From positions 1 to 14,714 of the forward strand of contig JAIVHD010000231.1 in the NCBI GenBank assembly GCA_020201235.1: 14,714 nt of DNA. The letters are read 5' to 3'. Below, piece after piece: positions 1-14,714 of the stretch. The position numbers and the translations under genes were made by a program. This stretch comes from Lysobacteraceae bacterium. GTDB lineage: Bacteria > Pseudomonadota > Gammaproteobacteria > Xanthomonadales > Wenzhouxiangellaceae. Every line of letters starts with the position of its first letter. Within the stretch, counting starts at the first letter, position 1. Below the pieces are notes generated by a model. The model did no database searches, had not been told where the DNA came from, and worked only from the letters and a program-made list of their open reading frames with translations.

Positions 1-98
1 AAAACGCTCAATTCGGCGAAATTGGCGGCCGTAGACGCGATTCGCGCACCAACTTGGTGCATATCCTCTTCGCGGCACCGCTGATCGCGGTGTACTAA
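1..98 (+). CDS. 3' end of an unidentified gene (partial)
   Basis: One frame is open from the left edge to a TAA at 96-98 and encodes about 31 residues, ending in a hydrophobic stretch (HILFAAPLIAVY). It lies 33 bases upstream of the RND permease on the same strand, so it may be the preceding gene of the same operon. RND permeases are commonly preceded by a periplasmic adaptor or a second permease, but the visible residues are too few to assign a family. The hydrophobic tail would fit a membrane protein. The fragment could also be a chance open frame. Confidence 0.4.
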   Translation, partial: NAQFGEIGGRRRDSRTNLVHILFAAPLIAVY

Positions 99-131
99 GG
101 TTAAGTCCGACAGGCTGCTAGGGTCACGACG

Positions 132-3100
132 ATGTCCTCGCCCGCCGAATTTTCCATCCGCCGTCCGGTCACGATCATCATGGCCTTCGTATCACTGGTT
201 GCGATCGGACTGATCTCGGCCCGCCTGCTGCCGCTGGAGTTCTTTCCCGAGCTGGATGTGCCATTGATTGTGGTGCAGGTGCCGTATCCCGGCTCGACCC
301 CGGATGAAGTCGAGCGCGAAATCACCCGGCCGGTCGAGGATGTGCTGGCCACCATCAGCGACATCAAGCAAATGCAGAGCAGTTCGGCGGCCGACCTTGC
401 AAGCTTTCAGATCGAGTTCGACTGGGGTCAGGATGTCGCCGTAAAAGCGGTTGAAGCCCGCGAGCGGGTCGAGGCGATCCGCGACCAGTTGCCCGACGAC
501 GTTCGTCGTATCCAGGTGTTTAAGTTCAACACCGCCGACCAACCGGTGCTGACGCTGCGAATCTCTTCGGAGCGCGATTTATCCAACGCCTACGACATGA
601 TCATGCGCACGCTGATCCGTCCTCTGGAACGCATCGAAGGCGTGGCCCGGGTTGAGCTCCAGGGGCTGGAACCCAAAGAAATCCGGATCGAGCTCATTGC
701 CGACCGTGTCAATGCCCATCAAGTCGACCTGCAGGCCCTGCAGGCGCGCCTGCGTGCGGTCAACTTTTCAACCTCGGCCGGCATGCTGACCGATTCCGGA
801 ACACGCTACCGGGTGATGCCACGCGGCGAGTTCGACGAGGTCGATCAGTACCGCGAACTGGTCATCGGCGACGGCCTGCGGTTGGGCGATATCGCCGAAA
901 TCACCTACGACTCGGCGCAACGCAACTACGCTCGCCATCTCGACCGCAAGTACGCCATCGGCGTCAATATCCTGAAGGAAAATGGCGCCAACCTGGTCGA
1001 CGTCGGACGGCGCACGCTGGCCGAGGTCGAACGCATCGGTGCCCAGCCCGAGATGAACGGTATCAACGTATTTTTTCTCGAGAACCAGGCCGACGGCGTG
1101 GTCAGCTCGCTGACCGACCTGCGCAATGCCGGCCTGCTGGGTGCCGTGCTTTCGTTGCTGGTACTGTATTTCTTCCTGCGCAACGTGCCGATGACGCTGA
1201 TGGTGGCGCTGGCCGTACCGGTCTCGCTGACGATCACGCTGGGTGCGATGTATTTCGCGGGCATCTCGCTGAACATTCTGTCGATGATGGGCCTGATGCT
1301 GGCCATCGGCATGCTGGTCGACAACGCCGTAGTCGTCAGCGAGAGCATTGCCACCGAGCGCGATAAAACCCCGGGCCCGGAGCACACAGTCGCTGCCACC
1401 GAACGCGGCGTGCGCAGCGTGTCGCTGGCAGTGGCCGCCGGCACGCTGACCAGCGCTGCGGTCTTTTTACCCAACATCTTCGGAGAGCAGAACCAGGTAT
1501 CGATCTTTTTGTCGCACGTCGCAATCGCCATCGTGGTCTCACTGGCAGTATCGCTGGTACTGGCCCAGACGATGATCCCGATGATTGCCAGCCGATTGCG
1601 CCCGCCCGCCCGCCAGGCCCGCTCGGTGCTACTCGATGAGATGCGCCGGCGCTACCAGGGGGCGCTCCTGTGGACCCTTCAACACCGCTGGAAAAGCGCG
1701 CTGCTGATCGTGCTGACCTTTGCCTCAATCGCCATTCCGGCAAGCATCGTCGAGACCGACATGTTTCCGGCCGAACAGGACCGCAGCCTGTTTCTGCGCT
1801 ACAACCTCGACAGCCACTACCCGCTGGCCAAGGTCAAGCGCGCGGTCGACCGGATCGAGGATTATCTGTATGAAAACCAGCAGCATTTGCAAATTCGCGC
1901 GGTCTACTCGTACTACAACGAATCCGGCGAGGCGCAGTCGTCGATCCTGCTGAGCGAGGATTCGCCCGACCAGCGCCCAAGCAAGCAGATCGCCGACCAG
2001 ATTCTCGCCGACATGCCGGAAATTGCGATCGGCAAGCCTGCCTTTGAGCAGCAGCGCAGCGGCGGCGAAGGCGTCAGTGTCACCGTCGTCGGCGCATCCA
2101 GCCAGCGGCTGGTCGGGATCGCCGAAGAAATCATTCGGCTGCTAGAGCCAATCGAAGGGCTGGAAGGCGTGCGCCTTCCCGAAATGCCCAACGAACGCGA
2201 ATTGCAAATTCGTGTCGACCGTGAGCGCGCCCGCCTGTTGGGCTTTGACTCAACCCGAATCGCGGAAACCGTTGCCACCGCACTGCGCGGCGTCAACCTG
2301 CGCGACTTTCACGGCCGCGAGGCCGAAGTGCCGGTCCGGCTGCGGTTTCGCGAAACCGATAGCCGATCGCCCGAAGCGCTGGCCGCGCTGGTGCTGACCA
2401 ACGATGCGGGCCAACAAGTGCCGCTCGCCGCGCTGGTCGATCTGATCGAAAACCCGGGTCCAACGCAGATTCGGCGGGTCGACCGCGAAACCGCGCTGAC
2501 CATCCGCGCCAACCTCGACGACATCACGATGTCTGCGGCACGTGAGCGCATCGAACGCACGCTCGCGCCGATGCAAATGCCGCCCGGTTATGAATGGCGG
2601 CTCGGGCAGGGCTTTACCCGAGAAGACGACACCGGACAGCGCATGGTTCTCAACATTCTGCTGGCGCTGATCCTCATCTACATGGTGCTGGCGGCACTGT
2701 TTGAATCGCTGTTACAGCCGATCACCATGATCGTGTCAATTCTGTTCTCGGTAGTCGGCGTGTACTGGTTCTTCCTGGTCACCGGCACGATCTTCTCGCT
2801 GATGGCGATGATCGGCATCCTGATTCTGATCGGCGTGGTCGTCAACAACGGCATCGTGCTGATCGACCGCATCAACCAGCTCAGAGGCCAGGGCCTGGAA
2901 CGCAATGCCGCGATCGTACAGGCCGGCGGCGACCGCCTGCGGCCCATCCTGATGACCGTCGGCACCACCGTGCTCGGCCTGATTCCGCTGTGCATCGGCA
3001 CCACCCAGATCGGCGGCGACGGTCCGCCCTACTTCCCGATGGCACGCGCCATCGTCGGTGGTCTGTTGTTTTCGACCGTCGTCAGCCTGCTCTTTCTGCC

Positions 3101-3224
3101 GACCATCTATTTGTGGCTGGACAGCATGCGTCACTGGCCGAGACGCTTCGGGCGCTTCATCGCCGGGTTCACAGCCCGACTGATCGGCAAACGCAAGCGC
3201 CGACAGCCGTCGCAGGCAGTCTAA
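132..3224 (+). CDS. RND-family multidrug/efflux permease (AcrB/MdtB type)
   Basis: A proton-driven inner-membrane pump that normally works with a periplasmic adaptor and an outer-membrane channel to expel hydrophobic compounds. Its 1030 residues match the usual family length. The N-terminus (IRRPVTIIMAFV then FFPELDVP and YPGSTPDEVEREI) is the classic RND opening: TM1 at about 11-31, followed by the first periplasmic porter domain. TM2-TM6 lie at about 333-485, TM7 at about 520-540, and the second membrane half at about 838-995, which gives the expected two-fold repeat. The TM4 relay reads LVDNAVV, with Asp397 kept and Asn398 where AcrB has Asp408. TM10 reads VVVNNGIV (Asn905/Asn906) where AcrB has Lys940. 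Thr942 in RLRPILMT is kept. The C-terminal tail is basic. The ATG start fits the family N-terminus, although its Shine-Dalgarno is weak. Substrate unknown. The gene could belong to a two-permease system with its partner to the left. Confidence 0.95.
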   Translation: MSSPAEFSIRRPVTIIMAFVSLVAIGLISARLLPLEFFPELDVPLIVVQVPYPGSTPDEVEREITRPVEDVLATISDIKQMQSSSAADLASFQIEFDWGQDVAVKAVEARERVEAIRDQLPDDVRRIQVFKFNTADQPVLTLRISSERDLSNAYDMIMRTLIRPLERIEGVARVELQGLEPKEIRIELIADRVNAHQVDLQALQARLRAVNFSTSAGMLTDSGTRYRVMPRGEFDEVDQYRELVIGDGLRLGDIAEITYDSAQRNYARHLDRKYAIGVNILKENGANLVDVGRRTLAEVERIGAQPEMNGINVFFLENQADGVVSSLTDLRNAGLLGAVLSLLVLYFFLRNVPMTLMVALAVPVSLTITLGAMYFAGISLNILSMMGLMLAIGMLVDNAVVVSESIATERDKTPGPEHTVAATERGVRSVSLAVAAGTLTSAAVFLPNIFGEQNQVSIFLSHVAIAIVVSLAVSLVLAQTMIPMIASRLRPPARQARSVLLDEMRRRYQGALLWTLQHRWKSALLIVLTFASIAIPASIVETDMFPAEQDRSLFLRYNLDSHYPLAKVKRAVDRIEDYLYENQQHLQIRAVYSYYNESGEAQSSILLSEDSPDQRPSKQIADQILADMPEIAIGKPAFEQQRSGGEGVSVTVVGASSQRLVGIAEEIIRLLEPIEGLEGVRLPEMPNERELQIRVDRERARLLGFDSTRIAETVATALRGVNLRDFHGREAEVPVRLRFRETDSRSPEALAALVLTNDAGQQVPLAALVDLIENPGPTQIRRVDRETALTIRANLDDITMSAARERIERTLAPMQMPPGYEWRLGQGFTREDDTGQRMVLNILLALILIYMVLAALFESLLQPITMIVSILFSVVGVYWFFLVTGTIFSLMAMIGILILIGVVVNNGIVLIDRINQLRGQGLERNAAIVQAGGDRLRPILMTVGTTVLGLIPLCIGTTQIGGDGPPYFPMARAIVGGLLFSTVVSLLFLPTIYLWLDSMRHWPRRFGRFIAGFTARLIGKRKRRQPSQAV

Positions 3225-3428
3225 AACCTGCCCCGGAACTGCACAACGACATCCTTCTGCAGGTAGGAGTAACATCTACCCACAAATTTTGCGGAGAAGC
3301 CGTCTTTTGTCGTTGTAGCCCCGGTTTATTCAGCACCCCTCCGTGATACAAAACAAGGTGCCGTGGCTGGGGCGTTACGCTACGCACGGATGGTGAATCA
3401 CCCGGGCTTACGCAATGACTACCACCCG

Positions 3429-3444
3429 CCGTCGTACCCGACGG
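3429..3444. other. Perfect 6-bp stem-loop between convergent genes
   Basis: CCGTCG, a four-base loop (TACC) and CGACGG form a perfect hairpin a few bases past the stop codon of the photolyase-like gene, which is read from the other strand. No T-run follows on either strand, so it is at best a weak or factor-assisted terminator. The rest of 3225-3456 holds no gene. It includes a looser GGTAG/CTACC stem at 3262-3280 followed by a short T-run, which could end the efflux transcript. Confidence 0.3.
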
Positions 3445-3456
3445 TCGCTTGAGTCG

Positions 3457-4716
3457 TCACGTCAGGAGCCTGTCGAGCAGCGCCGGGATTTTCTTTTTGA
3501 ACGGAAAAAATCCCCGGGTCGCGTGGGGCCATGCATTTTCATCCCAGGCCCGGCGAACGCGCTTGAGTTCGACGCCGGAGCCCGACAGCGTGTCGAGTAG
3601 TTGTCGCAGGCCATCATCAATGGGCCCGACCGGGGCATCGGCGGTCACGATCACCCGGGCACCTGCGGCCTGGGCGCGGCCCAGCAACTTTTCAGCATCC
3701 AGTGCATCGATCAATTCGGCACCGACCCCCAGTTCCAATTCAGCCTGCCGGGCCGCATCCCTGGTCGCGCCGGTCACAAATGCGCGTGCCTTGTCACCAA
3801 ACGGCCACGCGCGATCGGGATGGCCACTACGCGCCGCGACAACACCGGAAAGTTCAACACCGGGGGGCAGCGCCTCGAAGCCGCGCAGATCGTCGCCGTG
3901 CAGCAACACCAGCACACGCGCGCCATCGGACAGCTTGTCGGCCGGCCCGATGGGTCGACACTCCGGATTAGACAAACCGCGCACGGCCGGTGCCTCGGTG
4001 GCCAATCCGATCGGCCGATACATCCCGTGAGTATACTTTTCAATATTGCTCGGCCGCGCCAAATAAGTCTTGCCCGGCGTCTGGATGCCAGCCACCCAGC
4101 GCCAGCCCAAGGTGTTCGAGGCCGGGTCGGCGTCCAGCAGATGACGCAGGAAGAAATCGGCACCCAGCGTCCACGGCAGCTTCAGGGTGAAGATCCAGAT
4201 CGAGGCAAACCACATGCGCACGTGGTTGTGCAGATAACCGGTCGTCTTGAGTTCGATCACCCAGTCATCGAAGCATTCGATACCGGTCTGTCCGTGCTCG
4301 GCATCGAACCACGCCTTCGACCTTCCGGCATTGTCCTGGTATCGCCGGCGTTGCTCATCGCGCTCGGCTATGAACCCGTGCCAGACCTGCGGCCGCATCT
4401 GCAGCCAGCCCTTCCAGTAGCTGCGCCAGAACACCTCCTGGATGAACTTTTCGGCCGTCGACGGCGCAAAGCGTTGCAGCACGGCACCCAAGACCTCGCG
4501 TTCGGTGACCACGCGATGACGGATATACGGCGACAGCATCGAAACGTTGGCCTTGTGCCCCGGCCCGGGATCGGCGTTGCGCTCGGCGGCATATGCCCTT
4601 CCGGCGCGCGCTACAAAATCGCGCAAGCGAGCCATTGCGTCGGCACGCGTCGGCGGAAACAAGTCTTGCGAGGTCGGCAAACCGGTCTCGGCAGTATCCA
4701 TGGCGTCGAATGTCAT
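3457..4716 (-). CDS. Photolyase/cryptochrome-like FAD protein with apparently permuted domain order
   Basis: A 419-residue flavoprotein of the DNA photolyase/cryptochrome family. Residues about 30-235 form the helical FAD-binding domain: SMLSPYIRHRVVTE at 59-72, EVFWRSYWKGW at 94-104, TGYLHNHVRMWFAS at 159-172, then LLDADPASNTLGWRW. In that last block Asp195, Asp197, Asn201 and Trp205 match E. coli photolyase residues that hold or tune FAD and begin the electron-transfer tryptophan chain. The usual N-terminal alpha/beta antenna domain is missing from the front. Residues about 265-405 instead look like such an alpha/beta fold (strand VLVLLHGDD), and the protein ends in RGFFPFKKKIPALL. That resembles the FTPFKKKW-type motif that closes the antenna domain in ordinary photolyases. 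The open frame runs upstream to 4908, over the end of hipA. The ATG at 4716 avoids the overlap and precedes the conserved region; ATG 4701 is an alternative. No good Shine-Dalgarno was seen. Whether it repairs DNA or senses light cannot be told. Confidence 0.85.
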   Translation of the reverse strand: MTFDAMDTAETGLPTSQDLFPPTRADAMARLRDFVARAGRAYAAERNADPGPGHKANVSMLSPYIRHRVVTEREVLGAVLQRFAPSTAEKFIQEVFWRSYWKGWLQMRPQVWHGFIAERDEQRRRYQDNAGRSKAWFDAEHGQTGIECFDDWVIELKTTGYLHNHVRMWFASIWIFTLKLPWTLGADFFLRHLLDADPASNTLGWRWVAGIQTPGKTYLARPSNIEKYTHGMYRPIGLATEAPAVRGLSNPECRPIGPADKLSDGARVLVLLHGDDLRGFEALPPGVELSGVVAARSGHPDRAWPFGDKARAFVTGATRDAARQAELELGVGAELIDALDAEKLLGRAQAAGARVIVTADAPVGPIDDGLRQLLDTLSGSGVELKRVRRAWDENAWPHATRGFFPFKKKIPALLDRLLT

Positions 4717-4820
4717 ATTCGAAGGATATTGCCAGCAGCGCGAAGCGGCCCTGACCGCAATGCGCCGATTCATCCTCAAAGCAGTTCCTGCACAGGCGAT
4801 ACAGCACAGTGCCTCGGGTT

Positions 4821-6128
4821 TTACCAGAATGATTCCAGCCGGAGCGTGTCCTGGATCCTGTCGCGCTGCTCGGCGTGCACTTTCACCGCATCGGCATAGT
4901 CTCGCCATCGAGACACGACGTCCTGCACGTCACGGACGATGCGTTTTGCTTCCCCCTGCTTCAACAGCGCCACTTCTGCGCAGGCTTCGAAATCAGTCGA
5001 GTTGAATCCGTCGCGTTTCCCGTTCAGGGTCATCTGGTGCACCGAGGTCCAGTCGCCGGTCGGGTTATAACTCCAGGTCACGTCGTAGGCCGGAGACAGC
5101 GACCATCGCCCCTCTCGGTCCATGAGGAAGGCGATGTTCTTGACGTGATCGTCCTGGTTGCGAGCAACGATGTTGAACACCATACGACGATACTGCTGCT
5201 CGATTGCCTCCGGCCCCAGCCCGAGTTCTCGCATCACCATGATTGCCTGTTCATAGCCATAGGCACCGGCCAGATTGAAGTCGTAATGGGCCAGGGCCGC
5301 CAACGACTGCATGTGCAGCTTGCCGCCTTCTTCCGTGCGGTCAAATCGCTTGATCATGAAATGGCGTCGCCGGCCTTCCTCGAACAAGCGGCAGGGCATC
5401 ATGTTGACCCCCGCGTCTCGCGCCATTCTGGAGTAAGCGTACTCGATCGCACCAAACCCCATCGGATCAGCCAGCTCCCTGTCCCGGTTGTTGCTCACCC
5501 CGTCAAACTTCATCAGCCAGTATTCAAAACCAACGCCGGCGGGTGCCTGGCCCGACCGAATCTGGTGGGTCTTCGGGTTCCAGGCAATCAGCGCCTTGGC
5601 CCGTGCGCCACCGGCGGAGGTGCCCACGCGAAGAATGTCCCGCACTGCCCGATCGTCCTTCCGATCCGCAAATACGGTGTCCAGCGATGTGCGGTGGGTC
5701 AGAATTTCCGAGGCGAGTTCAACCAGCTGGCCGACGTGAATTTCAGTCTTTGCGGGGCGCCCCTGAGACATGGCCGGCTTGTACTCCAGTGCGCCCATCC
5801 CCCGCGTGCCGATATAGCACAGACGCTCTACAGCATTGAATGATTCGGGTTTGCGACCCATGGTCGCCAGCCAGGTATCGATAATGGCGTTGCCGAATTT
5901 GTCGGGCAATGAATCTGCCAACAGGCCGGGCAGCCCCTGAAACGATTGCGAGGACAATTCCGGGAACCGGTAGACCTGAGACGACAACGGCATTCGAACC
6001 GGCGCGAGTTCGATGCCGCTATTCAAGAAATCGCGGTCATACTCAAACGCAGCCACCTGCTCGTTGTCGGCCAGACTGACGTAACCGATTTCGGTCCCCC
6101 ACAATCTGACGGTGGCCCGCGTGCTCAC
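4821..6128 (-). CDS. hipA: HipA-family serine/threonine kinase toxin
   Basis: Toxin of a type II HipBA module. Characterised HipA proteins phosphorylate translation targets such as glutamyl-tRNA synthetase and cause dormancy or persistence. With the GTG start at 6128 the protein has 435 residues, the normal length. The Gly-rich VGTSAGGARAKA lies at 168-179; its Ser171 corresponds to the autophosphorylation-loop region of E. coli HipA. ATP-binding Lys207 sits in YWLMKFD, the catalytic loop NQDDHVKN at 324-331 (Asp326, Asn331), and the metal-binding Asp349 in SPAYDV. All key residues are present, so an active kinase is expected. The frame extends to 6149, but GTG 6128 overlaps the hipB stop by four bases (GTGA) and has a G-rich Shine-Dalgarno just upstream, which indicates translational coupling. 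The actual target is unknown. Confidence 0.93.
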   Translation of the reverse strand: MSTRATVRLWGTEIGYVSLADNEQVAAFEYDRDFLNSGIELAPVRMPLSSQVYRFPELSSQSFQGLPGLLADSLPDKFGNAIIDTWLATMGRKPESFNAVERLCYIGTRGMGALEYKPAMSQGRPAKTEIHVGQLVELASEILTHRTSLDTVFADRKDDRAVRDILRVGTSAGGARAKALIAWNPKTHQIRSGQAPAGVGFEYWLMKFDGVSNNRDRELADPMGFGAIEYAYSRMARDAGVNMMPCRLFEEGRRRHFMIKRFDRTEEGGKLHMQSLAALAHYDFNLAGAYGYEQAIMVMRELGLGPEAIEQQYRRMVFNIVARNQDDHVKNIAFLMDREGRWSLSPAYDVTWSYNPTGDWTSVHQMTLNGKRDGFNSTDFEACAEVALLKQGEAKRIVRDVQDVVSRWRDYADAVKVHAEQRDRIQDTLRLESFW

Positions 6129-6490
6129 CGCTCGTCCCCCCACTTCCATTGCTTGTCGCCGGCCTCTTTCGCGCGTTCCCGGTTCGCGCGCTTGCTGGTC
6201 GCTCGCTTCGGAAGCGCATCCGCTTTACGGGTCGCCTGCGACGGGCGCAGTGTCGGTTCCGGCAGCAGCACCTCGAGCCTTTTCAGCAGATCCAACTCGC
6301 GCAAGACGCGAAACAGCGTCCGGGTCTGGGTGGTTTCCCCGGCCTCCAGCCGTTCCAGGGTGCGCTTACCCACACCCGCCTTTCGAGCCAACTCCGCCTG
6401 CGTCAATTGCTGGTCAATGCGAACTTGAGCCAGCCGATGTCCCAGCTCTGCCAGCGCTGCTGGGTCATGATGTAGATCTTGAAACTTCAC
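6125..6490 (-). CDS. hipB: HipB-like XRE-family antitoxin/repressor
   Basis: DNA-binding antitoxin that would neutralise HipA and repress the operon. Of its 121 residues, about 15-70 form an XRE helix-turn-helix (LGHRLAQVRIDQQLTQAELA, then KAGVGKRTLERLEAGE), the lambda-repressor-like fold of HipB. The C-terminal 45 or so residues are a Lys/Arg-rich tail ending in QWKWGDER, longer than in the short E. coli HipB and of unclear role. It could make extra DNA or toxin contacts. The frame also allows a TTG start at 6493. GTG 6490 is preferred because GAGGG lies seven bases upstream. It overlaps hipA by four bases. Regulation is probably by the two palindromes at 6527-6584. Confidence 0.88.
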   Translation of the reverse strand: MKFQDLHHDPAALAELGHRLAQVRIDQQLTQAELARKAGVGKRTLERLEAGETTQTRTLFRVLRELDLLKRLEVLLPEPTLRPSQATRKADALPKRATSKRANRERAKEAGDKQWKWGDER

Positions 6491-6526
6491 CAAACAACCC
6501 TCGAAAATCGCTGTAGATCTTACTCG

Positions 6527-6544
6527 CTCGCATTATACGGCGAG
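6527..6544. promoter_or_regulatory. Proximal putative HipB operator (CTCGC-N8-GCGAG)
   Basis: A perfect five-base inverted repeat separated by eight bases, with the hipBA -10 box inside the spacer. E. coli HipB binds TATCC-N8-GGATA sites, so the geometry (short half-sites, eight-base spacer) is the same while the half-site sequence differs. Binding here would block RNA polymerase directly. That HipB is the ligand is inferred from position and geometry. Confidence 0.6.
6532..6537 (-). promoter_or_regulatory. Probable -10 box of the hipBA promoter
   Basis: On the minus strand this reads TATAAT, a perfect sigma-70 -10 hexamer. It would start transcription near 6525, about 35 bases before the hipB GTG. 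No good -35 hexamer is visible at 16-18 bases spacing, so the promoter may be weak or dependent on other contacts. The box sits inside the spacer of the proximal TCGC-N8-GCGA palindrome. Confidence 0.6.
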
Positions 6545-6568
6545 TTGATGAGGATTATTCGCGCTTAT

Positions 6569-6584
6569 TCGCTATATATTGCGA
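6569..6584. promoter_or_regulatory. Distal putative HipB operator (TCGC-N8-GCGA)
   Basis: A second copy of the TCGC-N8-GCGA palindrome with an unrelated AT-rich spacer. It lies exactly 41 bases from the first, about four helical turns, so two dimers would sit on the same face. It falls upstream of the -10 box, around the -40 to -57 region. A third, imperfect site (TCGC-N8-GCTA) starts at 6559. Confidence 0.55.
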
Positions 6585-6648
6585 GTGCGCCCCGATTTAC
6601 GGCACGGTGTTTAAGCCGGTGATGCAGTCGGTCGGTTAGAATCTCGCG

Positions 6649-7203
6649 ATGTCGCAACTTTCCGATCAGGACGCCGTTATCGAGGCCACCCGCCGGTGGT
6701 TGGAAAAGGCCGTGATCGGGCTGAACCTGTGCCCGTTTGCCGGGCAACCGTGGCACCAGGGCCGGGTGCGGTTGCGGGTCAGCGAGGCGACCAGGCCGCA
6801 GCAGCTCGTGCAGGATCTTGCCGACCAACTACTGGCACTGCACAAGGCCGATCCGGCCGATTGCGAAACCACGTTATTGATCCACCCGAAGCTGCTGGGC
6901 GACTTTCTCGAGTACAACGACTTTCTCGATGTCGCCGACGGCGTACTCGAAGAACTGGCACTCGACGGCACGATCCAGATTGCCAGCTTTCATCCCGATT
7001 ACCAGTTTGCTGGCAGCGCAGCCGATGACCCGGCCAACTGCACCAACCGCTCGCCCTACCCCATGCTGCACCTTTTGCGCGAAGCCAGCATCGAGGCGGC
7101 GACCGCCAAGCTGCCCTCATCCGAGGCGATTTACGAGCGCAATATCAAGACGATGCAGGCGCTCGGCCTGAAGGCCTGGGAGCGCTTGATCAGGCCCGAC
7201 TAA
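6649..7203 (+). CDS. DUF1415 domain-containing protein
   Basis: A 184-residue soluble protein of the DUF1415 family, which is common in proteobacteria and has no established function. Family hallmarks are GLNLCPFA at 24-31, TTLLIHPKLL, FHPDYQFAG at 118-126, and the TNRSPYPMLHLLRE segment near 136-149. The conserved Cys, His, Asp and Arg residues suggest a ligand- or metal-binding site, but this is not demonstrated. The ATG at 6649 has no Shine-Dalgarno. A TAGAAT hexamer at 6637-6642 would start transcription almost at the ATG, so a leaderless message is possible, although no matching -35 is seen. It is divergent from hipB and faces the diguanylate cyclase; no operon partner is visible. Confidence 0.88.
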   Translation: MSQLSDQDAVIEATRRWLEKAVIGLNLCPFAGQPWHQGRVRLRVSEATRPQQLVQDLADQLLALHKADPADCETTLLIHPKLLGDFLEYNDFLDVADGVLEELALDGTIQIASFHPDYQFAGSAADDPANCTNRSPYPMLHLLREASIEAATAKLPSSEAIYERNIKTMQALGLKAWERLIRPD

Positions 7204-7209
7204 CGCCCG

Positions 7210-7251
7210 GCGTTGCATCCGTTTCGAGCCGATCTAAAATGAATGCAACGC
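7210..7251. repeat. Perfect 9-bp inverted repeat between convergent genes
   Basis: GCGTTGCAT at 7210-7218 and its exact complement ATGCAACGC at 7243-7251 enclose a 24-base loop, just after the DUF1415 stop. The repeat could form a hairpin that ends the transcript, but the loop is long and no T-run follows. The remaining bases to 7373 show no gene. Confidence 0.35.
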
Positions 7252-7373
7252 TGCGGTGAGGCGAATCGCAGGCCTGGATACGCCACTCCTCCGGAAAACC
7301 CCGTGTGCCAAAAAATCCGACGCGAGCATCGCGCGAGTTTATGGAATGTTCGGGCTTGTGGGCCACGCGGGCA

Positions 7374-9173
7374 TCACGGATGATCACGATCATCCCGCGC
7401 CTCCGGGCTGATGACATAACGATTGCGTCCCTCGCGCTTGGCCTGGTAGAGCGCTTCATCGGCGCGCTTGCGCAGCATTTCCAGATTCTCGCCCTGGCGA
7501 TACCGGCTGATCCCAAAGCTCAGCGTGACGGCGGGATCGTCGGCCCGGCTCGAACCCGCTGGCTGCTGCTGGAAAGTCTCGATGCCATCAATGGCCGGAG
7601 CGATGTGGTCGGCGATGATCAGCACCGCAAACTCCTCGCCGCCGACCCGGCCGATCAGCGCCGGGGCACCGAACGCTTCACGCAGACGCCGTGCCACCTG
7701 CCCGAGCACCTGATCGCCGGAAAGGTGCCCGAATTCATCATTGATGCGCTTGAAGTGATCGACGTCGGCCATGACCAGATAGGCCGAAGCACCCTGGCGC
7801 GTGGCCTCTTCGAGCAATGACGCGGCGCGTTCGAGAAACCAGCCCTGGTTGGCCAGCCCGCTGAGCGTGTCATGGCGCGAGAGCTGGCGAAAGTAGCGGC
7901 GCCCGCGGAACGCATTGATCAGCAAGATGGCCAGCAGCAGGGCCACGAAGATCGATAGCAACAGGATGATCGATCGGAGCCGCCGTTGCTGATTTGCCGT
8001 CGTGGCCTCGACATGGGCTACGCGCGCACTCTCTTCGAGCAGGTCGATCTGGCGGTCCTTAAGACGGGTGTCGAACTCGATTTCCAGATACGCCAGGCGC
8101 ATCGCGCGGTCCCGGTCGAGAAATTGTTCGCGGGCATCGAGATGCCGGCGATAGTGGTCGAGCGCCCGCCGCAGTTCACCGCGATCTTCGGCAATGCGCG
8201 CCAGCAACCTGTCCATACGGGCGGTCTGATCCCATAAGCCCATGGTTCTGAAGTAATCGGCTACTGCCGTGAAACCGGCCCGCACCTCCGGGGTAATGGC
8301 ACCGAGGTCGTACAGCGTTTCGGCCAGCACCAGGCGGGCCTCGTGTTCGCCCAGCGGATAAACAGAATCTTGCAGCACCCCAATCGAAGCAATAGCCAGC
8401 TTTCTCGCCTCCTCGAGCCGGCCCTGAGCGCGCAGCAAATCGGCCAAACCGTGCTGCAACACGCCGACGAACAGCTGGTTGCCGATTTTGCTGCACGCGG
8501 CGATACCCCGGCGATACTGGGTTTCGGATTGCTCGGGCTGATCGGCCCACTTGTAGACGGGTGCGACCCGTTGCCGAGCGACACACTCTTCATTGGTCTC
8601 GCCGGCAGTCAGCGCGCGGCTGATCGCCTCCTGCCCATACTGCATGGCCCGCTCGTGCTCCCCGACCTTGCCGAACATGTAGGCGGCCATATTGTAGGTT
8701 GAGATACCGGCCACGGGATCGTCGACCCGAGGCTCGATTTGAAGTGCGTTCAGCAGGCTGTCAAAGGCCGTTTCATAGTCGCGCAGCAACACCCCTGTAT
8801 TTGCCATGAACTGCAGCACCCGCAAGCGCTGGTCATCCTTCAGGGGGCGCTCGAGCAGCATGGTCGCGCGTTCCAGCGCCTCCAGCGAGCGATCAGCCAA
8901 AACCAGATGACGGGCCTCGAGCAGGTGAAAATCGACGAACTCGGGCAACTCGAACGCATCGAGTTGTGGGCCCAGTTCATCCAGGATGGCCTGGGCATCC
9001 TGCCAGTGTTCGGTATAGCTGACAACGCGGGCCTGGTCTAGCTGTTGGCGAACAGAGCCGGATGTGGTCTGATCCTGACCCCATGACGGCACGGCAAGCA
9101 TTGCCAAAAGCCAGGCGCACAGCAATACCACCGGCCAGGACCCGGGTACCGTGTTTGACTGTCGTAGCTGCAT
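7374..9173 (-). CDS. Membrane diguanylate cyclase with periplasmic TPR-like sensor
   Basis: Makes the second messenger c-di-GMP from two GTP. Counting from the TTG at 9179: a signal peptide or signal anchor at about 15-35, a long helical region at about 45-395 with TPR-like pairs (DLLRAQGRLEEARKLAI at 247-263), and a TM helix at about 403-424. The GGDEF domain spans 431-592, so the sensor is expected in the periplasm and the catalytic domain in the cytoplasm. The active site is GGEEF at 513-517, and ADVDHFKRINDEFGH at 471-485 supplies the metal-binding Asp. The usual RxxD inhibitory site, which should end six residues before GGEEF, is GAPA here, so product feedback is probably absent. The substrate loop reads LSGLANQ where most have LTGLxNR. 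ATG 9173, two codons after the TTG, is chosen; its Shine-Dalgarno is weak. The sensed signal is unknown. Confidence 0.9.
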   Translation of the reverse strand: MQLRQSNTVPGSWPVVLLCAWLLAMLAVPSWGQDQTTSGSVRQQLDQARVVSYTEHWQDAQAILDELGPQLDAFELPEFVDFHLLEARHLVLADRSLEALERATMLLERPLKDDQRLRVLQFMANTGVLLRDYETAFDSLLNALQIEPRVDDPVAGISTYNMAAYMFGKVGEHERAMQYGQEAISRALTAGETNEECVARQRVAPVYKWADQPEQSETQYRRGIAACSKIGNQLFVGVLQHGLADLLRAQGRLEEARKLAIASIGVLQDSVYPLGEHEARLVLAETLYDLGAITPEVRAGFTAVADYFRTMGLWDQTARMDRLLARIAEDRGELRRALDHYRRHLDAREQFLDRDRAMRLAYLEIEFDTRLKDRQIDLLEESARVAHVEATTANQQRRLRSIILLLSIFVALLLAILLINAFRGRRYFRQLSRHDTLSGLANQGWFLERAASLLEEATRQGASAYLVMADVDHFKRINDEFGHLSGDQVLGQVARRLREAFGAPALIGRVGGEEFAVLIIADHIAPAIDGIETFQQQPAGSSRADDPAVTLSFGISRYRQGENLEMLRKRADEALYQAKREGRNRYVISPEARDDRDHP

Positions 9174-9402
9174 TGACAAAATTTATGCTTCCCGCTCGGA
9201 TCCGCGCCTGGGGCGTGCAACACGCTGGGTTGCATCAGGCTCATTCATCATAGTACCGCTAACGCTGGATCAATTTTCACGCCACACCCCGGAACCACGT
9301 CTCTGCCCGGAAATTATTCTGGGCTGATGGAACTCGATCCAGAACCAAACACGATCACTCTGGACGACAATAGCGCGAACTAGCAGGAGCTCGTGTGAAC
9401 CG

Positions 9403-9660
9403 CTACGCAATGCGACGCTTGTGCGGACCTTGCGATTGCCGTCCGACGGCCGCTTTCACCGGGCTGCTGCCGACGCCGAGTGCACGGCACATCTGTTCAT
9501 TCGGTTGCAGCGCGAAATTGCGCGCGTTTTTCAGATTGAAGTCTGCGACTGCGGCCTGCTGCAGCAGATACAGGCAACCAGTCGGCACCAGCTGGCGAAA
9601 TGCGTGCGCAAGTATGCCGGGTAGTTGGCCGGATGATCGACTGGTTTTCTTAACCCACAT
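9403..9660 (-). CDS. Small hypothetical protein with strong ribosome-binding site
   Basis: An 85-residue frame (MWVKKTSRSSGQLPG at the start, HKRRIA at the end) that I do not recognise. It is supported by an unusually good Shine-Dalgarno: AGGTGGTGA at 9672-9664 in minus-strand order, matching the anti-SD complement at eight of nine bases, with the AGGTGG core six bases from the ATG. It lies 14 bases after the stop of the 9675-9911 frame, which would fit a two-gene unit. The protein is basic at both ends with a hydrophobic patch near residues 24-38. It could equally be a remnant or an artefact of a degenerate region. Confidence 0.35.
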   Translation of the reverse strand: MWVKKTSRSSGQLPGILAHAFRQLVPTGCLYLLQQAAVADFNLKNARNFALQPNEQMCRALGVGSSPVKAAVGRQSQGPHKRRIA

Positions 9661-9674
9661 TATTCACCACCTGG

Positions 9675-9911
9675 TCATAACGGCAAGCCGGCGCGCTCCA
9701 GCAGCACCGGTATCTGTTTCTTAACCGAAAGAAGCTGCCCGTAGCTTGTGGCCGGGCCTGAACGTTCCAGTTTCAATTTTCGTTTTGGAACCGCCACACT
9801 GCCAAGCGCAGCCGTGTTTCCATAGTCTGCACTCGCACCGCCAATTCGCACGCAGGGCGGAGGTCTGGTGCAATTAGTAACACTTGGTTCAGCCGTCGGC
9901 CTTACGACTCT
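9675..9911 (-). pseudogene. Probable 3' fragment of a degraded gene
   Basis: A minus-strand frame is open for 78 codons before TGA at 9675-9677. No ATG is present; the only plausible start is GTG 9851 (58 residues), with no Shine-Dalgarno. The last part reads VPKRKLKLERSGPATSYGQL then LSVKKQIPVLLERAGLPL, which looks like a genuine protein C-terminus rather than random sequence. The KKQIPVLLER segment resembles KKKIPALLDR at the end of the photolyase-like protein encoded at 3457-4716. The family is not identified. It could be a short real gene. Confidence 0.35.
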
Positions 9912-9949
9912 TCAAACTTCTAACTCCGAAAACTGATGCAACGTTAGGG

Positions 9950-9955
9950 TATACT
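9950..9955 (+). promoter_or_regulatory. Possible -10 box upstream of the GMC oxidoreductase
   Basis: TATACT differs from the consensus by one base. It would start transcription near 9962, about 60 bases before the 19-codon frame and 140 before the oxidoreductase. No convincing -35 lies 16-18 bases upstream. Confidence 0.35.
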
Positions 9956-10023
9956 ACGGACGGCTGAGGATACCACGCTACGCGGGTTTTATTCTAAATC
10001 TCTAGAGGAAGGGGTTTATTCAA

Positions 10024-10083
10024 ATGTTCGATGACGCGAACACAATCTCCCAACGGTTGCTGATTCCGAGCGAACGTCTGTGA
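10024..10083 (+). CDS. 19-residue leader or N-terminal remnant ORF
   Basis: ATG to TGA encodes MFDDANTISQRLLIPSERL. A purine-rich Shine-Dalgarno (AGAGGAAGGGG, 10004-10014) lies nine bases upstream and is the best ribosome-binding site near the oxidoreductase, whose own ATG follows 19 bases after this stop and has a poor one. Three readings are possible: a translated leader that couples to the downstream gene; a relic of an older N-terminus, since many GMC-like proteins open with a similar short segment before the FAD fold; or a real small peptide. No attenuator or codon run was seen. Confidence 0.35.
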   Translation: MFDDANTISQRLLIPSERL

Positions 10084-10102
10084 AAACAAGCCCGGATACG
10101 AT

Positions 10103-11557
10103 ATGTTGCGAGAAACCGCCGAAATGCCGGCGGCCGACGTACTTACGGCTGATACTCTGATTGTGGGCGGTGGTCTGGCCGGCTTGACGCTTGCGCGCGA
10201 ACTGGCGCAAGCCGGCCAACAAGTCGCCATCTTCGAGAGTGGGGGCACCACCATCGAGCCGGCGCTAGAAGCCTTAAATGACGGCGTCACCCGCTTGCAT
10301 GGTCCTGATGGGCAACAGCGCAATCTCGGCGCTTACCTGCGCGAATCCCGCTGTCGTTGTCTCGGCGGCTCAGGCAATCTTTGGGGTGGGAAATGCGCTG
10401 AATTGGACCCGATCGACTTTGAGCACCGTCGCTGGATTAATCATAGCGGATGGCCATTTTCGTACGAGGATTTCAAGCCCTACCTGGACCGAGCATGCTT
10501 CGTAATGGAAATTCCGGTATTCAATCGCCAAGCCGCGATTGATCCGGATGACCCCCGGGCTCCACTATCTATTAATACCGAGCGCGTGATCACGACCGGT
10601 CTGCGGCGCTATTCGGCAATCGCTGGCAAAGCGCCGCAAAATCATTTCGCTCGTTTTGTCCGCGATATCGCTCATTTGCCCGGCGTCACCATTTGTCTTC
10701 ACGCCACCGTCGTCGAGTTGCTGAGCGACCCCGACAAGGCCGGGACTATAACCAGTTTGCGCATTAAAGCGTCGGATGGACAATTCATCACTGCTCGAGG
10801 ACAACGGGTGGTACTTGCCGCCGGCGGCCTGGAGAATGCGCGCATTTTGCTTACCGGCGGCAGAAACGGGCGACCGCTGGGCTCCAATCCAGACCTCATT
10901 GGCCGCTACTTTATGGGTCACGTGATGTATCGCCAGACGACGGAATCTCCACCAACCAACACACTCGAACTTGATATTTCCGCCGAGCATCTACGGCTAT
11001 ATCTCGATAAAGATCCAACTCAACCACAAGGAACTTTGCAATTAGCGCGCCGGGCGCAAAAACGCTATCGCCTGCCGAATACCAGCATCACCCTTGAGCC
11101 TCGTGACGCGACCAGTCCATCAGTACCGGTATTCTTCATGTCCGAACAACAGCCAAATCCGGAAAGTTGCGTCACGCTGGACGAGAATTGTGATGCCAAT
11201 GGTATACGACGATTGTGTCTCGATTGGCGATTCACGGCAGCCGACTTTGCAGGCATGGCTCAGGCGGTAGAGCTCATGGGCGCTGAGCTGGAGGACGCCG
11301 GTATTGGCCGATTGAATTGCACCATCGACCAACAGCGACTGGTGACATGGGCGGACAGCGCCCGTCACCACATGGGCACCACCCGAATGCACGAGCAACC
11401 GAGCCAGGGTGTGGTGGACGTAAACTGCCGTGTACATGGACAAGAAGGGCTTTATGTCGTCGGTACTTCGGTGTTTCCTACTGGCGGAATCAGCAACCCC
11501 ACTCTTTCTATCATAGCGCTGACCTTACGCCTGGCTGACCACATCTTAGTACGCTGA
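10103..11557 (+). CDS. GMC-type FAD-dependent oxidoreductase
   Basis: A flavin oxidoreductase of the glucose-methanol-choline superfamily, whose members oxidise alcohols or sugars. The FAD-binding GGGLAG lies at 22-27 after strand DTLIVG, with ESG at 45-47 ending the second strand of the Rossmann fold. GGSGNLWGGKCAELDPIDFE at 88-107 is the second flavin-contact block, and AAGGLENARILL at 239-250 the third. The C-terminal catalytic region has His422/His423 (HHMGTTRM) and ends in GTSVFPTGGISNPTLSIIAL, with Asn465 as the second catalytic residue. At 484 residues it is near the normal length. There is no signal peptide or twin-arginine motif, so it is cytoplasmic. ATG 10103 has a weak ribosome site; ATG 10124 also retains the fold. 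It converges on the exporter and synthetase genes, so a tailoring role is possible but inferred. Sequence around it is more AT-rich than the left half of the window. Confidence 0.88.
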   Translation: MLRETAEMPAADVLTADTLIVGGGLAGLTLARELAQAGQQVAIFESGGTTIEPALEALNDGVTRLHGPDGQQRNLGAYLRESRCRCLGGSGNLWGGKCAELDPIDFEHRRWINHSGWPFSYEDFKPYLDRACFVMEIPVFNRQAAIDPDDPRAPLSINTERVITTGLRRYSAIAGKAPQNHFARFVRDIAHLPGVTICLHATVVELLSDPDKAGTITSLRIKASDGQFITARGQRVVLAAGGLENARILLTGGRNGRPLGSNPDLIGRYFMGHVMYRQTTESPPTNTLELDISAEHLRLYLDKDPTQPQGTLQLARRAQKRYRLPNTSITLEPRDATSPSVPVFFMSEQQPNPESCVTLDENCDANGIRRLCLDWRFTAADFAGMAQAVELMGAELEDAGIGRLNCTIDQQRLVTWADSARHHMGTTRMHEQPSQGVVDVNCRVHGQEGLYVVGTSVFPTGGISNPTLSIIALTLRLADHILVR

Positions 11558-11668
11558 AACGATTGCTCGCGCCAACTAACGGTTTTGTAGGCATTCAATA
11601 TGATACTAATTCCTTCATACGTAAAGCCTCACGCGTTATACCTGTTCACAATATGGTCAGCGTCTTAG

Positions 11669-13366
11669 TCATTGATTTTCAGACTTTTCATTTACTTCAC
11701 GTCGTTGCGTCGGCAACTTCTCTATCAGAAGGCCCTGGTCCATGCACAACACCCGATCAGCGGTATGGAAATAGTGATCATCATGAGTGATGGCTATAAT
11801 GGTTTTTCCGCTGGATTTTAATGCAGGAATAATTTCATGATAAAAGCGCCGCCGGAAATCGGGGTCCTGCTCAGCGGCCCATTCATCGAACAACAAAATG
11901 GGTCGATCTTCCGCCAAGGCCACGACCAGTGCCAAGCGTTTACGTTGCCCCTGAGACAAGTCAGTATTGGACAGTACGCCCTGGGTCACATCCACCTTGT
12001 GGCCTAAGTCCAAGCGTTCAATCTCATCCCGAACTGCTGCGTCATCAGCCAGAACACCCATACCGTTCAGGACTTGTTTGAATAAATAATAATCACCAAA
12101 GATCGCACTGAAATGAGACCGATACCAATCCATGCGGTCAGCTGTTATTTCCTCGCCAGCCAACTTAATCGTCCCCTCACTGGGACGATATAAACCGACC
12201 AACAACTTGGCAAGAGTGGACTTTCCGCTACCGTTTCCGCCTGTAAGGTAAATCACTTCGCCCTGACGAATCTTCAATGACAAAGGACCCATGGCGAATT
12301 GATACGCATCATCGCCAGAGCTGTTGCCATATCGATAGCGTACCAGATCCAGCTCCAATGATCGCAACGAGCGCTCAGCTTCAATGATTGGCATGTCGCG
12401 CCCGACGTGGCATTCCTCCTTAGCCAAATCCAACTCGATCAGATTGCTCAATGAGATCCTTGCAGCAGCGAAATTCGGCACGTTGTTGATAATCGAGATT
12501 ACCGGTCCGCGAAGGTACATCAACATCAGAGCGAAGGTAAGTAATTGCTGCTGGGTCATTGGCAGCCAATACTGCGATACCCACAATACTCCTCCCAGTA
12601 AAAACAAAGACAATGATGCACTCCAACCAGTATAAGCGGTTGAAAAATAATCCCGCCTAACCGAGTGGTGGTAAATTTCCTGAAGATGATGTTCGAATTG
12701 CTCGTCGCGGAAAAACCGTTCACGCAGCCGATTCAACTTCAATTCTTTGCTTCCGTAGACCAACGCCTGGATTTGTTCATAGAGACCATTCATGGACTGC
12801 CGAAAACGCGCTGCATACAGCTTCACTTTGGGCATCAATACCCATTCAGAAAAGACCATACCCAACAACAAGAAGCCTAAAATCACCCCCAGGTGAATCC
12901 ACGACACCCAACCCAGATAGACCATGCCTACGATGGCAACCACACTATTCATCAGCACCATCGGCAAGGTCGCAAACGCGACCGCCAGTTTTGGCAGATC
13001 CTCGGCAAAAGCGGCATAAATCCGATGCGCGCCAACCGTTTCCAACTGCGGATATGGTGTCATCGAGACAGCATTGGCCAGACGCCGACGCAATCGAACC
13101 ATAGTCAAAGCACCGCGCCGGGCAATCCAGACGCCCGACAGCACATGCGTTCCCAAAATCACAGCCAACAAGGCAAGCAAGGTCAACCCACTACTTAGCG
13201 GTGTCGTCAAACGCTCTGCCATCAATTGGTTGATAAATGCAATTAGCGCCAGGGTCGTCAAGGCATTGATTACACTGGCCACTACTCCGGCTACCAATAA
13301 GCGTCGGTGTCCCTGCAATACCAAACGCGACAAACTTAGCTTAGGATTAAACACAGTCTGATTCAC
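11669..13366 (-). CDS. Cyclic-peptide-type ABC exporter (SyrD/PvdE family)
   Basis: An inner-membrane transporter that exports nonribosomal or similar peptides to the periplasm. It is a 565-residue half-transporter expected to act as a homodimer. Six membrane helices occupy about 22-300. The nucleotide-binding domain has Walker A GGNGSGKST (376-384), the signature LSQGQRKRLAL (470-480), Walker B LLFDEW with catalytic Glu495, and the switch His528 in ITHDDHYF. The DEWAAEQDPDFRRRFYHE stretch is a hallmark of the SyrD/PvdE cyclic-peptide exporters and separates them from lipid or heme exporters. The GTG start directly abuts the TGA of the upstream condensation-domain gene, so the two are translationally coupled. 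No separate Shine-Dalgarno is visible. The 110 bases before the convergent GMC gene show no clear terminator. Confidence 0.93.
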   Translation of the reverse strand: MNQTVFNPKLSLSRLVLQGHRRLLVAGVVASVINALTTLALIAFINQLMAERLTTPLSSGLTLLALLAVILGTHVLSGVWIARRGALTMVRLRRRLANAVSMTPYPQLETVGAHRIYAAFAEDLPKLAVAFATLPMVLMNSVVAIVGMVYLGWVSWIHLGVILGFLLLGMVFSEWVLMPKVKLYAARFRQSMNGLYEQIQALVYGSKELKLNRLRERFFRDEQFEHHLQEIYHHSVRRDYFSTAYTGWSASLSLFLLGGVLWVSQYWLPMTQQQLLTFALMLMYLRGPVISIINNVPNFAAARISLSNLIELDLAKEECHVGRDMPIIEAERSLRSLELDLVRYRYGNSSGDDAYQFAMGPLSLKIRQGEVIYLTGGNGSGKSTLAKLLVGLYRPSEGTIKLAGEEITADRMDWYRSHFSAIFGDYYLFKQVLNGMGVLADDAAVRDEIERLDLGHKVDVTQGVLSNTDLSQGQRKRLALVVALAEDRPILLFDEWAAEQDPDFRRRFYHEIIPALKSSGKTIIAITHDDHYFHTADRVLCMDQGLLIEKLPTQRREVNEKSENQ

Positions 13367-14714
13367 TCATGAAATTGCAAGGGGCATCGACAGAGGCCAT
13401 TCTTCAATCAGGGCACTCAATTCTTGTCTGACGCGTTCCAGCAACTCGTCTGCCGTCACGCCCACAGGAAGCGCTTCCGGAACAATAGCGAGCTTAAGCC
13501 ATAGCGATGGTCTTGGCTGATGACTCATACTGGCAAACAACTGATAGGCAAAGCCGAAATCATCAGACTGATGAACACTTTTCAAATCATTGCTCCCCGA
13601 TGTCTGAGCCCGTGAGTCGATCTCAGCATAATCCACATAGTTCAATGTAGCATTAAACAATACCCCGCCGGCAAACGATTGCAGACCGGATAATGGGCAA
13701 CTTCCCAGATGCTCGGCAGCATTCAGATACCCTTGCAATTGACGGCTGATCAGGACGTGATCCTGCCGGGAGCGAATCGTTGCCAAGGGCACCAAGACGG
13801 GGGACAGATACCAGAACATTCCCGCGGCATTCAATGGATCACTCATTTCCGAGTGCCGGCCATTCGTGACCACGCCAATGGGCACTGCTCGTTCAGCACG
13901 TACCATGGGCCAATGAGCGATGGCTCGCGACCAAGCCCACAACAGGATAGCTCGTGGCGTCGAACCACTTGCCGAAGCCCGCTGAATTAACGCCGAGGTC
14001 AACGCAGAATCCACGCTCAAACCTGCTTGCTCTTGCCGAACGGCGCGGGTGCGCGCAAGAATCATGGACGACTCTGGCCAACGGTCTAAACCCAAATCGG
14101 TCAAGTGTTGCTCCAGCGCGCGCCTCCACTCGTTACTACGCACTTCACGGCTTCGTGCAGCCTCGAACAGGGCGTATTCCGCCATGCCAATGTCAGATGG
14201 GCCTGAGGGTGGATTATCAATCGAGATATCTCCGCCATAGGCGTCTATCAAACGGCGCAGAAAACGCTGAATTGTCCAGCCATCCTGAATAGCATGATGC
14301 ATGGAGAACAAAAAGAATACTTCATCTTCGGGCAGACGAATCACCTGTAGACGCCACAACGGCTGGTCTGGCGCATCCAGCAGGAAGGGCCGCCGTCTGT
14401 CCGAGTCAATACGTTGCTGTAAGTCCGTCGTCAAATCGCCCTTCACGTTCCGCCAATCATCCGCCGTCAGCGGCAGAGGTGCGCCATCAACCCAATACAG
14501 ACTGAAACCACCGTCGTCACACAAGCGGAAGCGGCAGCGAAAACTGGGCGTGTCGGCGGCCCAGGTCAAAGCCCGGCGTAAGCGTTCGACGGAAAAATCG
14601 CCGAGGTTCCAGCGATAGGCTAGTTGGACATGAAAGATCCCCCGACGCTCCCGATCGTCACGATACCGGTTCAACATCTCGGTTTGCATCAAGGTGGCCG
14701 GAACCGCTTCAGCC
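13367..14714 (-). CDS. Nonribosomal peptide synthetase, C-terminal condensation domain (partial)
   Basis: The 3' end of a gene that runs off the right edge. The last 448 codons encode one condensation domain, which forms peptide bonds between carrier-bound acyl groups. Motif C1 is PATLMQTEML, whose first codons lie upstream of the first ATG (14689), so translation must begin outside the window. Catalytic MHHAIQDG (HHxxxDG) is encoded at 14279-14302, and a C5-like VVTNGRHSEM then GMFWYLSPV region follows. The classical FVNT is replaced, and the C6/C7 region is hard to recognise. The domain runs to the stop: no carrier, adenylation or thioesterase domain follows. Product release may therefore depend on this domain (condensation or cyclisation) or on a separate enzyme. 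The downstream exporter starts at once. Adenylation domains and substrate cannot be inferred from this piece. Confidence 0.88.
   Translation of the reverse strand, partial: AEAVPATLMQTEMLNRYRDDRERRGIFHVQLAYRWNLGDFSVERLRRALTWAADTPSFRCRFRLCDDGGFSLYWVDGAPLPLTADDWRNVKGDLTTDLQQRIDSDRRRPFLLDAPDQPLWRLQVIRLPEDEVFFLFSMHHAIQDGWTIQRFLRRLIDAYGGDISIDNPPSGPSDIGMAEYALFEAARSREVRSNEWRRALEQHLTDLGLDRWPESSMILARTRAVRQEQAGLSVDSALTSALIQRASASGSTPRAILLWAWSRAIAHWPMVRAERAVPIGVVTNGRHSEMSDPLNAAGMFWYLSPVLVPLATIRSRQDHVLISRQLQGYLNAAEHLGSCPLSGLQSFAGGVLFNATLNYVDYAEIDSRAQTSGSNDLKSVHQSDDFGFAYQLFASMSHQPRPSLWLKLAIVPEALPVGVTADELLERVRQELSALIEEWPLSMPLAIS

Follow-up and report, generated by a model that had tools for sequence, protein, structure and literature searches.

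An FAD-first photolyase-like protein with an antenna-type domain at its C-terminal end, a probable member of the NewPHL/SPL class

Photolyases with a reversed domain order form an inverted class known since 2020, the NewPHL or short photolyase-like (SPL) enzymes, which were described in 2020–2021 (Emmerich 2020; Xu 2021). The available excerpts of this literature name members from D. shibae, M. mesophilicum, E. litoralis and R. centenum as well as Phr7 of Prochlorococcus and SePhrC of S. elongatus. According to the same excerpts, characterised members repair cyclobutane pyrimidine dimers (CPDs), DsNewPHL has a tryptophan (Trp) dyad (PMC8948257), and in Phr7 the flavin adenine dinucleotide (FAD) domain is followed by a "Z-domain", an "atypical, short photolyase domain" (PMC9426592). 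Here we analyse contig JAIVHD010000231.1, positions 1 to 14,714; this whole stretch of 14,714 nucleotides is called the window. It carries the gene of a photolyase-like protein of 419 amino acids (P0001, to which all residue numbers refer; Table 1) that is most probably a further member of this inverted class. In all likelihood P0001 is a NewPHL/SPL enzyme in which an antenna-type alpha/beta domain follows the FAD domain, and the most valuable part of the analysis is the evidence at the sequence level for an antenna domain at the rear.

Close homologues start near residue 1 or 6 of P0001, and an alternative longer in-frame start lies at 4908. The Pfam profile FAD_binding_7 matches residues 91–218 (1.6e-21) with its positions 1–126 of 203 only, and phmmer aligns residues 20–219 to residues 200–396 of E. 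coli PhrB (1dnp; 2.4e-17), so that the FAD domain begins near residue 20. A Pfam search with E up to 10 gave no match to PF00875, the N-terminal antenna domain. An AlphaFold2 model was computed from an alignment of 130 rows (112 of 212 length-filtered proteins and 18 loci) and has a mean predicted local distance difference test score of 96.5 and a predicted template modelling score of 0.93. It is helical up to residue 228, followed by a region at 267–398 in which five strands and helices take turns, and ends with two helices. Thus, both the absence of an alpha/beta domain before the FAD motifs, which the earlier note on this DNA had placed within the first 60 residues, and the alpha/beta region behind the FAD domain were read correctly. 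Residues 401–414 are RGFFPFKKKIPALL, and the terminal pattern G[FY]Fx[FLV][KR] is present in 129 of the 130 rows.

When the C-terminal domain is folded alone, its first Foldseek matches are photolyase N-terminal antenna domains, the ten best rows being class II photolyases. Foldseek with the whole model matched the FAD domain and nothing else, as a reversed domain order would lead one to expect, and residues 256–419 alone gave nothing useful against Pfam, NCBIfam and PDB sequences. A C-terminal segment was obtained from 62 of the 92 loci L001–L092. At the sequence level, a profile of the C-terminal domain scored 31.1 against class I antenna domains, compared to 19.0 for the best of 60 shuffles and 18.6 for the best of 25 decoy families. 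The antenna set comprised 28 distinct segments out of 41 loci, and the ordinary-photolyase motif filter was passed by 18 of the 30 loci L093–L122. In the extended profile alignment (-mact 0.05) FFPFKKKIP falls on the antenna motif VFTPFW, as is expected if the protein ends in a counterpart of the FTPFKKKW motif, which the earlier note had supposed. These profile and model results support an antenna-type domain that was relocated behind the FAD domain and is no new domain.

The alternative, which the earlier note had set beside a permuted domain order, is that the antenna was lost and an unrelated alpha/beta domain resembling universal stress proteins was gained afterwards. We regard this as improbable, as the photolyases not only rank first in Foldseek but their matches reach residue 179–180 of the domain model, which has 180 residues, while those of single-domain universal stress proteins end near 148–160. 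In addition, the profile score to the antenna domains exceeds all controls, the FTPF-like terminal motif is in register with the antenna, and a Deinococcus protein bridges both domain sets (see below). Fold and profile therefore place the C-terminal domain with the antenna domains, and of the two alternatives the permuted order is retained. A circular permutation within the alpha/beta domain was also considered and is rejected: in the profile and structural alignments the strands and helices succeed each other as they do in antenna domains, so that the change concerns the order of whole domains alone. Among open-licence papers we found none that states a sequence homology of the NewPHL C-terminal domain to the antenna, which is a weak indicator of novelty.

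The bridging protein is P0355, an FAD-first photolyase of 456 amino acids encoded on plasmid p380k of Deinococcus sp. AJ005 (L144:2312-3682). It has its FAD domain at residues 102–218 and a PF00875 match at 300–395 that stays below the threshold (20.0 bits, cut-off 26.6). Its C-terminal part matches the C-terminal domain of the window family at 6.4e-6 and also the antenna set, at 7.9e-10; with the full-length profile, P0355 aligns over 333 columns (3.1e-37). A further FAD-first photolyase reading frame was found in an unannotated region of plasmid pPP1 of Persicobacter psychrovividus (L145:2423-5054), beside and overlapping the reading frame of a plant-cryptochrome-like photolyase. The C-terminal part of this protein matched neither the C-terminal domain of P0001 (E 0.067) nor the antenna set (E 0.16).

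The active-site residues were mapped onto PhrB via the phmmer alignment, and identity was counted over the 130 rows. Besides the residues of Table 1, Y42, N164, M168 and W207 are invariant and R167 is identical in 129 rows. The retention of Asp195, Asp197, Asn201 and Trp205, which the earlier note had pointed out, thus holds for all 130 rows. Two positions differ from PhrB: R342 is replaced by histidine (H165) in all 130 rows and W338 by tyrosine (Y161) in 128. The position of PhrB W306 is leucine, valine, alanine or a gap in most rows, aromatic in 5% and Y126 in P0001, so that W205 and W182 are retained as a Trp dyad rather than a triad. Judged from these residues, the active site is of the CPD type with a Trp dyad.

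The following mode of action would be consistent with these residues. FAD bound in the N-terminal domain would be reduced, partly by photoreduction via W205 and W182, and the light-excited FADH- would give an electron to a CPD, which then splits. The analogy with characterised members suggests that this CPD would lie in single-stranded DNA. Rather than harvesting light, the C-terminal domain most likely packs on the FAD domain and closes it, and it would probably bind no antenna dye; we propose this lid role for an FAD domain in which the usual C-terminal section of the Pfam profile is missing. The C-terminal domain of NewPHL is reported to seal the FAD site. A cryptochrome, a flavoprotein acting in blue-light sensing or redox signalling and not in repair, could also make use of the FAD site and the Trp dyad, and the host genome already carries a separate ordinary photolyase (G000:C393). 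Nevertheless, we think a sensor function unlikely, as the CPD-site residues show full identity across the 130 rows, which is unexpected after loss of repair, one homologue sits in a photorepair cluster (L142), and the characterised relatives repair CPDs as far as the excerpts describe them.

The reversed order is conserved. All 8000 candidates scored in the full-length search passed the E threshold of 0.001, the 120 matches listed having 291 to 479 amino acids, and PF03441 is the sole precomputed Pfam domain in 353 distinct proteins among the matches listed. When the C-terminal domain was used as query, 10 of 249 genomes from the phylum (open frames of 379–514 amino acids) and 41 of 120 from one family gave a match. 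In that family the five longest frames (576–716 amino acids) contain PF03441 only. A relative which combines this C-terminal region with a normal N-terminal antenna was not seen among the 353 listed proteins, by their precomputed Pfam domains, or among these five frames of at least 576 amino acids. The 61 genomes nearest to the window contain a near-full-length match in 13 cases and a C-terminal piece in two more. A scan of viral contigs yielded 10 pattern matches, none of which was confirmed.

In a tree of 227 FAD-domain columns, 25 NewPHL-like rows including the window protein form one group (95/97). Methylobacterium sp. Leaf108 and Roseobacteraceae proteins belong to this group, and the presumed kinship to the M. 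mesophilicum and D. shibae proteins is drawn via these same-genus and same-family proteins. The earlier note had considered an existing but poorly characterised FAD-binding-only group; the group is already named and partly characterised. At 100/99 the NewPHL-like rows join the proteins from Deinococcus and Persicobacter, and the class I, DASH and plant-cryptochrome-like rows stand outside; the motif cutter missed two of the seven class I loci and one of the five extra proteins, which are not part of this tree. One inversion for the FAD-first photolyases is suggested by this join, and suggested only, as long branches meet there.

NewPHL co-occurs with a further photolyase/cryptochrome type which scores under the DASH cut-off. 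Among the matches listed, which were read by eye, with score bands that were chosen after inspection and may cover two types, and uncorrected for kinship, NewPHL is present in 30 of 38 genomes with this type and in 11 of 82 without it (Fisher p 3e-12); among the relatives of the window the counts are 9 of 15 and 6 of 46 (p 7e-4). The further photolyase of locus L139 has the plant cryptochrome family TIGR02766 as its best NCBIfam match, far under its cut-off, and both genes are near or adjacent in several genomes (L139, L140, L141, L145; G385:C11, G405:C24). At L142 (G051:C6, 1500–8862) a NewPHL homologue is found together with a Fpg/Nei-type glycosylase, a MerR-type regulator, an ordinary photolyase and a PF04244-type (6-4) photolyase. 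NewPHL is said to replace DASH. DASH proteins above the cut-off occur in 2 of the 61 relatives, neither of which has NewPHL, and in none of the 120 genomes of the NewPHL-rich family.

We tentatively put forward, as a possibility and not as our firm expectation, that all FAD-first photolyases (NewPHL/SPL, the Fe-S proteins Phr4–6, Deinococcus and Persicobacter) go back to one antenna relocation. The "short" class would then be derived, with the antenna reused as a lid, instead of being an antenna-less ancestor, and the plant-cryptochrome-like photolyase would be a steady companion, often encoded nearby and possibly forming a functional pair with it. Earlier work interpreted the class as possibly ancestral to all photolyases and cryptochromes, since it seemed to have no alpha/beta domain (Xu 2021, as reported in the excerpts of PMC9649867 and PMC9498864). 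As the C-terminal domain looks antenna-derived, such readings are weakened. If it is a relocated antenna, being short does not speak for ancestry, and rooted trees together with structures can then answer whether the inversion preceded or followed the divergence of the other classes. Entries annotated as "FAD-binding domain-containing protein" could moreover be named inverted photolyases.

Directly upstream of the photolyase gene lies a hipBA-type pair, a helix-turn-helix protein and HipA (window 4821-6493, minus strand), and the photolyase gene follows hipA on the same strand after 104 bases. A common operon is rejected, as this arrangement is absent from loci L002–L092, where no hipA relative was found within their flank lengths. 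Window 10103-14713 encodes a GMC-type oxidoreductase, an ABC transporter and a protein with a condensation domain that is truncated at the window end; these genes may mark the border of a peptide-synthetase cluster.

Table 1. Features of the FAD-first photolyase gene in the window, with the counterparts of active-site residues in E. coli PhrB
Feature	Position	Strand	Residues	PhrB counterpart and presumed role	Basis
Whole gene, FAD-first photolyase-like protein P0001	3457..4716 (read from 4716 down to 3457, stop included)	minus	419 amino acids		Open reading frame, Pfam, phmmer, homologue lengths
FAD (catalytic) domain	3979..4671	minus	about 16-246		End of FAD_binding_7 profile (positions 127-203) unmatched
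Inter-domain linker	3919..3978	minus	247-266		Modelled without helix or strand; weak conservation
C-terminal alpha/beta domain, probable homologue of the N-terminal antenna domain of ordinary photolyases	3463..3918	minus	267-418		Model, Foldseek, profiles
GFFPFKKKIP, putative counterpart of the antenna-closing FTPF motif	3484..3513	minus	402-411		Profile alignment, row conservation
Active-site residues	4423..4437	minus	E94, W97, R98	E274, W277, R278; presumably lesion and FAD binding	Identical in 130/130
Electron-transfer residue	4171..4173	minus	W182	W359; presumably middle Trp of the chain	Identical in 130/130
FAD-site residues	4114..4134	minus	D195, D197, N201	D372, D374, N378; presumably FAD site	Identical in 130/130
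Electron-transfer residue	4102..4104	minus	W205	W382; presumably Trp closest to the flavin	Identical in 130/130

Compared to the class I CPD photolyase PhrB, P0001 shares the FAD and CPD residues, and both domains are homologous, but the domain order is reversed, an N-terminal PF00875 domain is lacking and the distal Trp is lost. DASH cryptochromes are single-strand CPD photolyases; they differ from P0001 in domain order, and the match of TIGR02765 covers the FAD domain only partially with 67.1 bits, far under the cut-off of 317.05 bits. Features of the prokaryotic (6-4) photolyases (FeS-BCP) were not found in P0001, which has no PF04244 match and only the cysteines C148 and C253.

The reverse order is also found in Phr4/Phr5 and Phr6 of marine cyanobacteria, which are considered (6-4) photolyases by their authors and which, in the excerpts available, have four iron–sulfur (Fe-S) cysteines and a recognisable C-terminal photolyase domain, P0001 having neither. 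That P0001 belongs to this inverted Fe-S type is hardly credible in spite of the identical domain order and the adjoining branch in the FAD tree (27-row group at 100/99, with long branches), as the Fe-S type requires four cysteines (PMC9426592, as excerpted) and the motif CxxCx5C occurs in 0 of 130 rows, whereas Deinococcus P0355 has C155, C240, C243 and C250 with a spacing near that given for Phr4 (C169, C254, C257, C263; PMC9426592). With the NewPHL/SPL class, as the excerpts portray it, P0001 has in common the FAD domain in first place, the extra C-terminal domain, the Trp dyad and the lack of both an N-terminal antenna and the Fe-S cysteines, and none of the features compared sets it apart from the class. 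The SPL of Xu is described as devoid of the alpha/beta domain in the excerpt of PMC9649867; P0001 has this domain at the opposite end.
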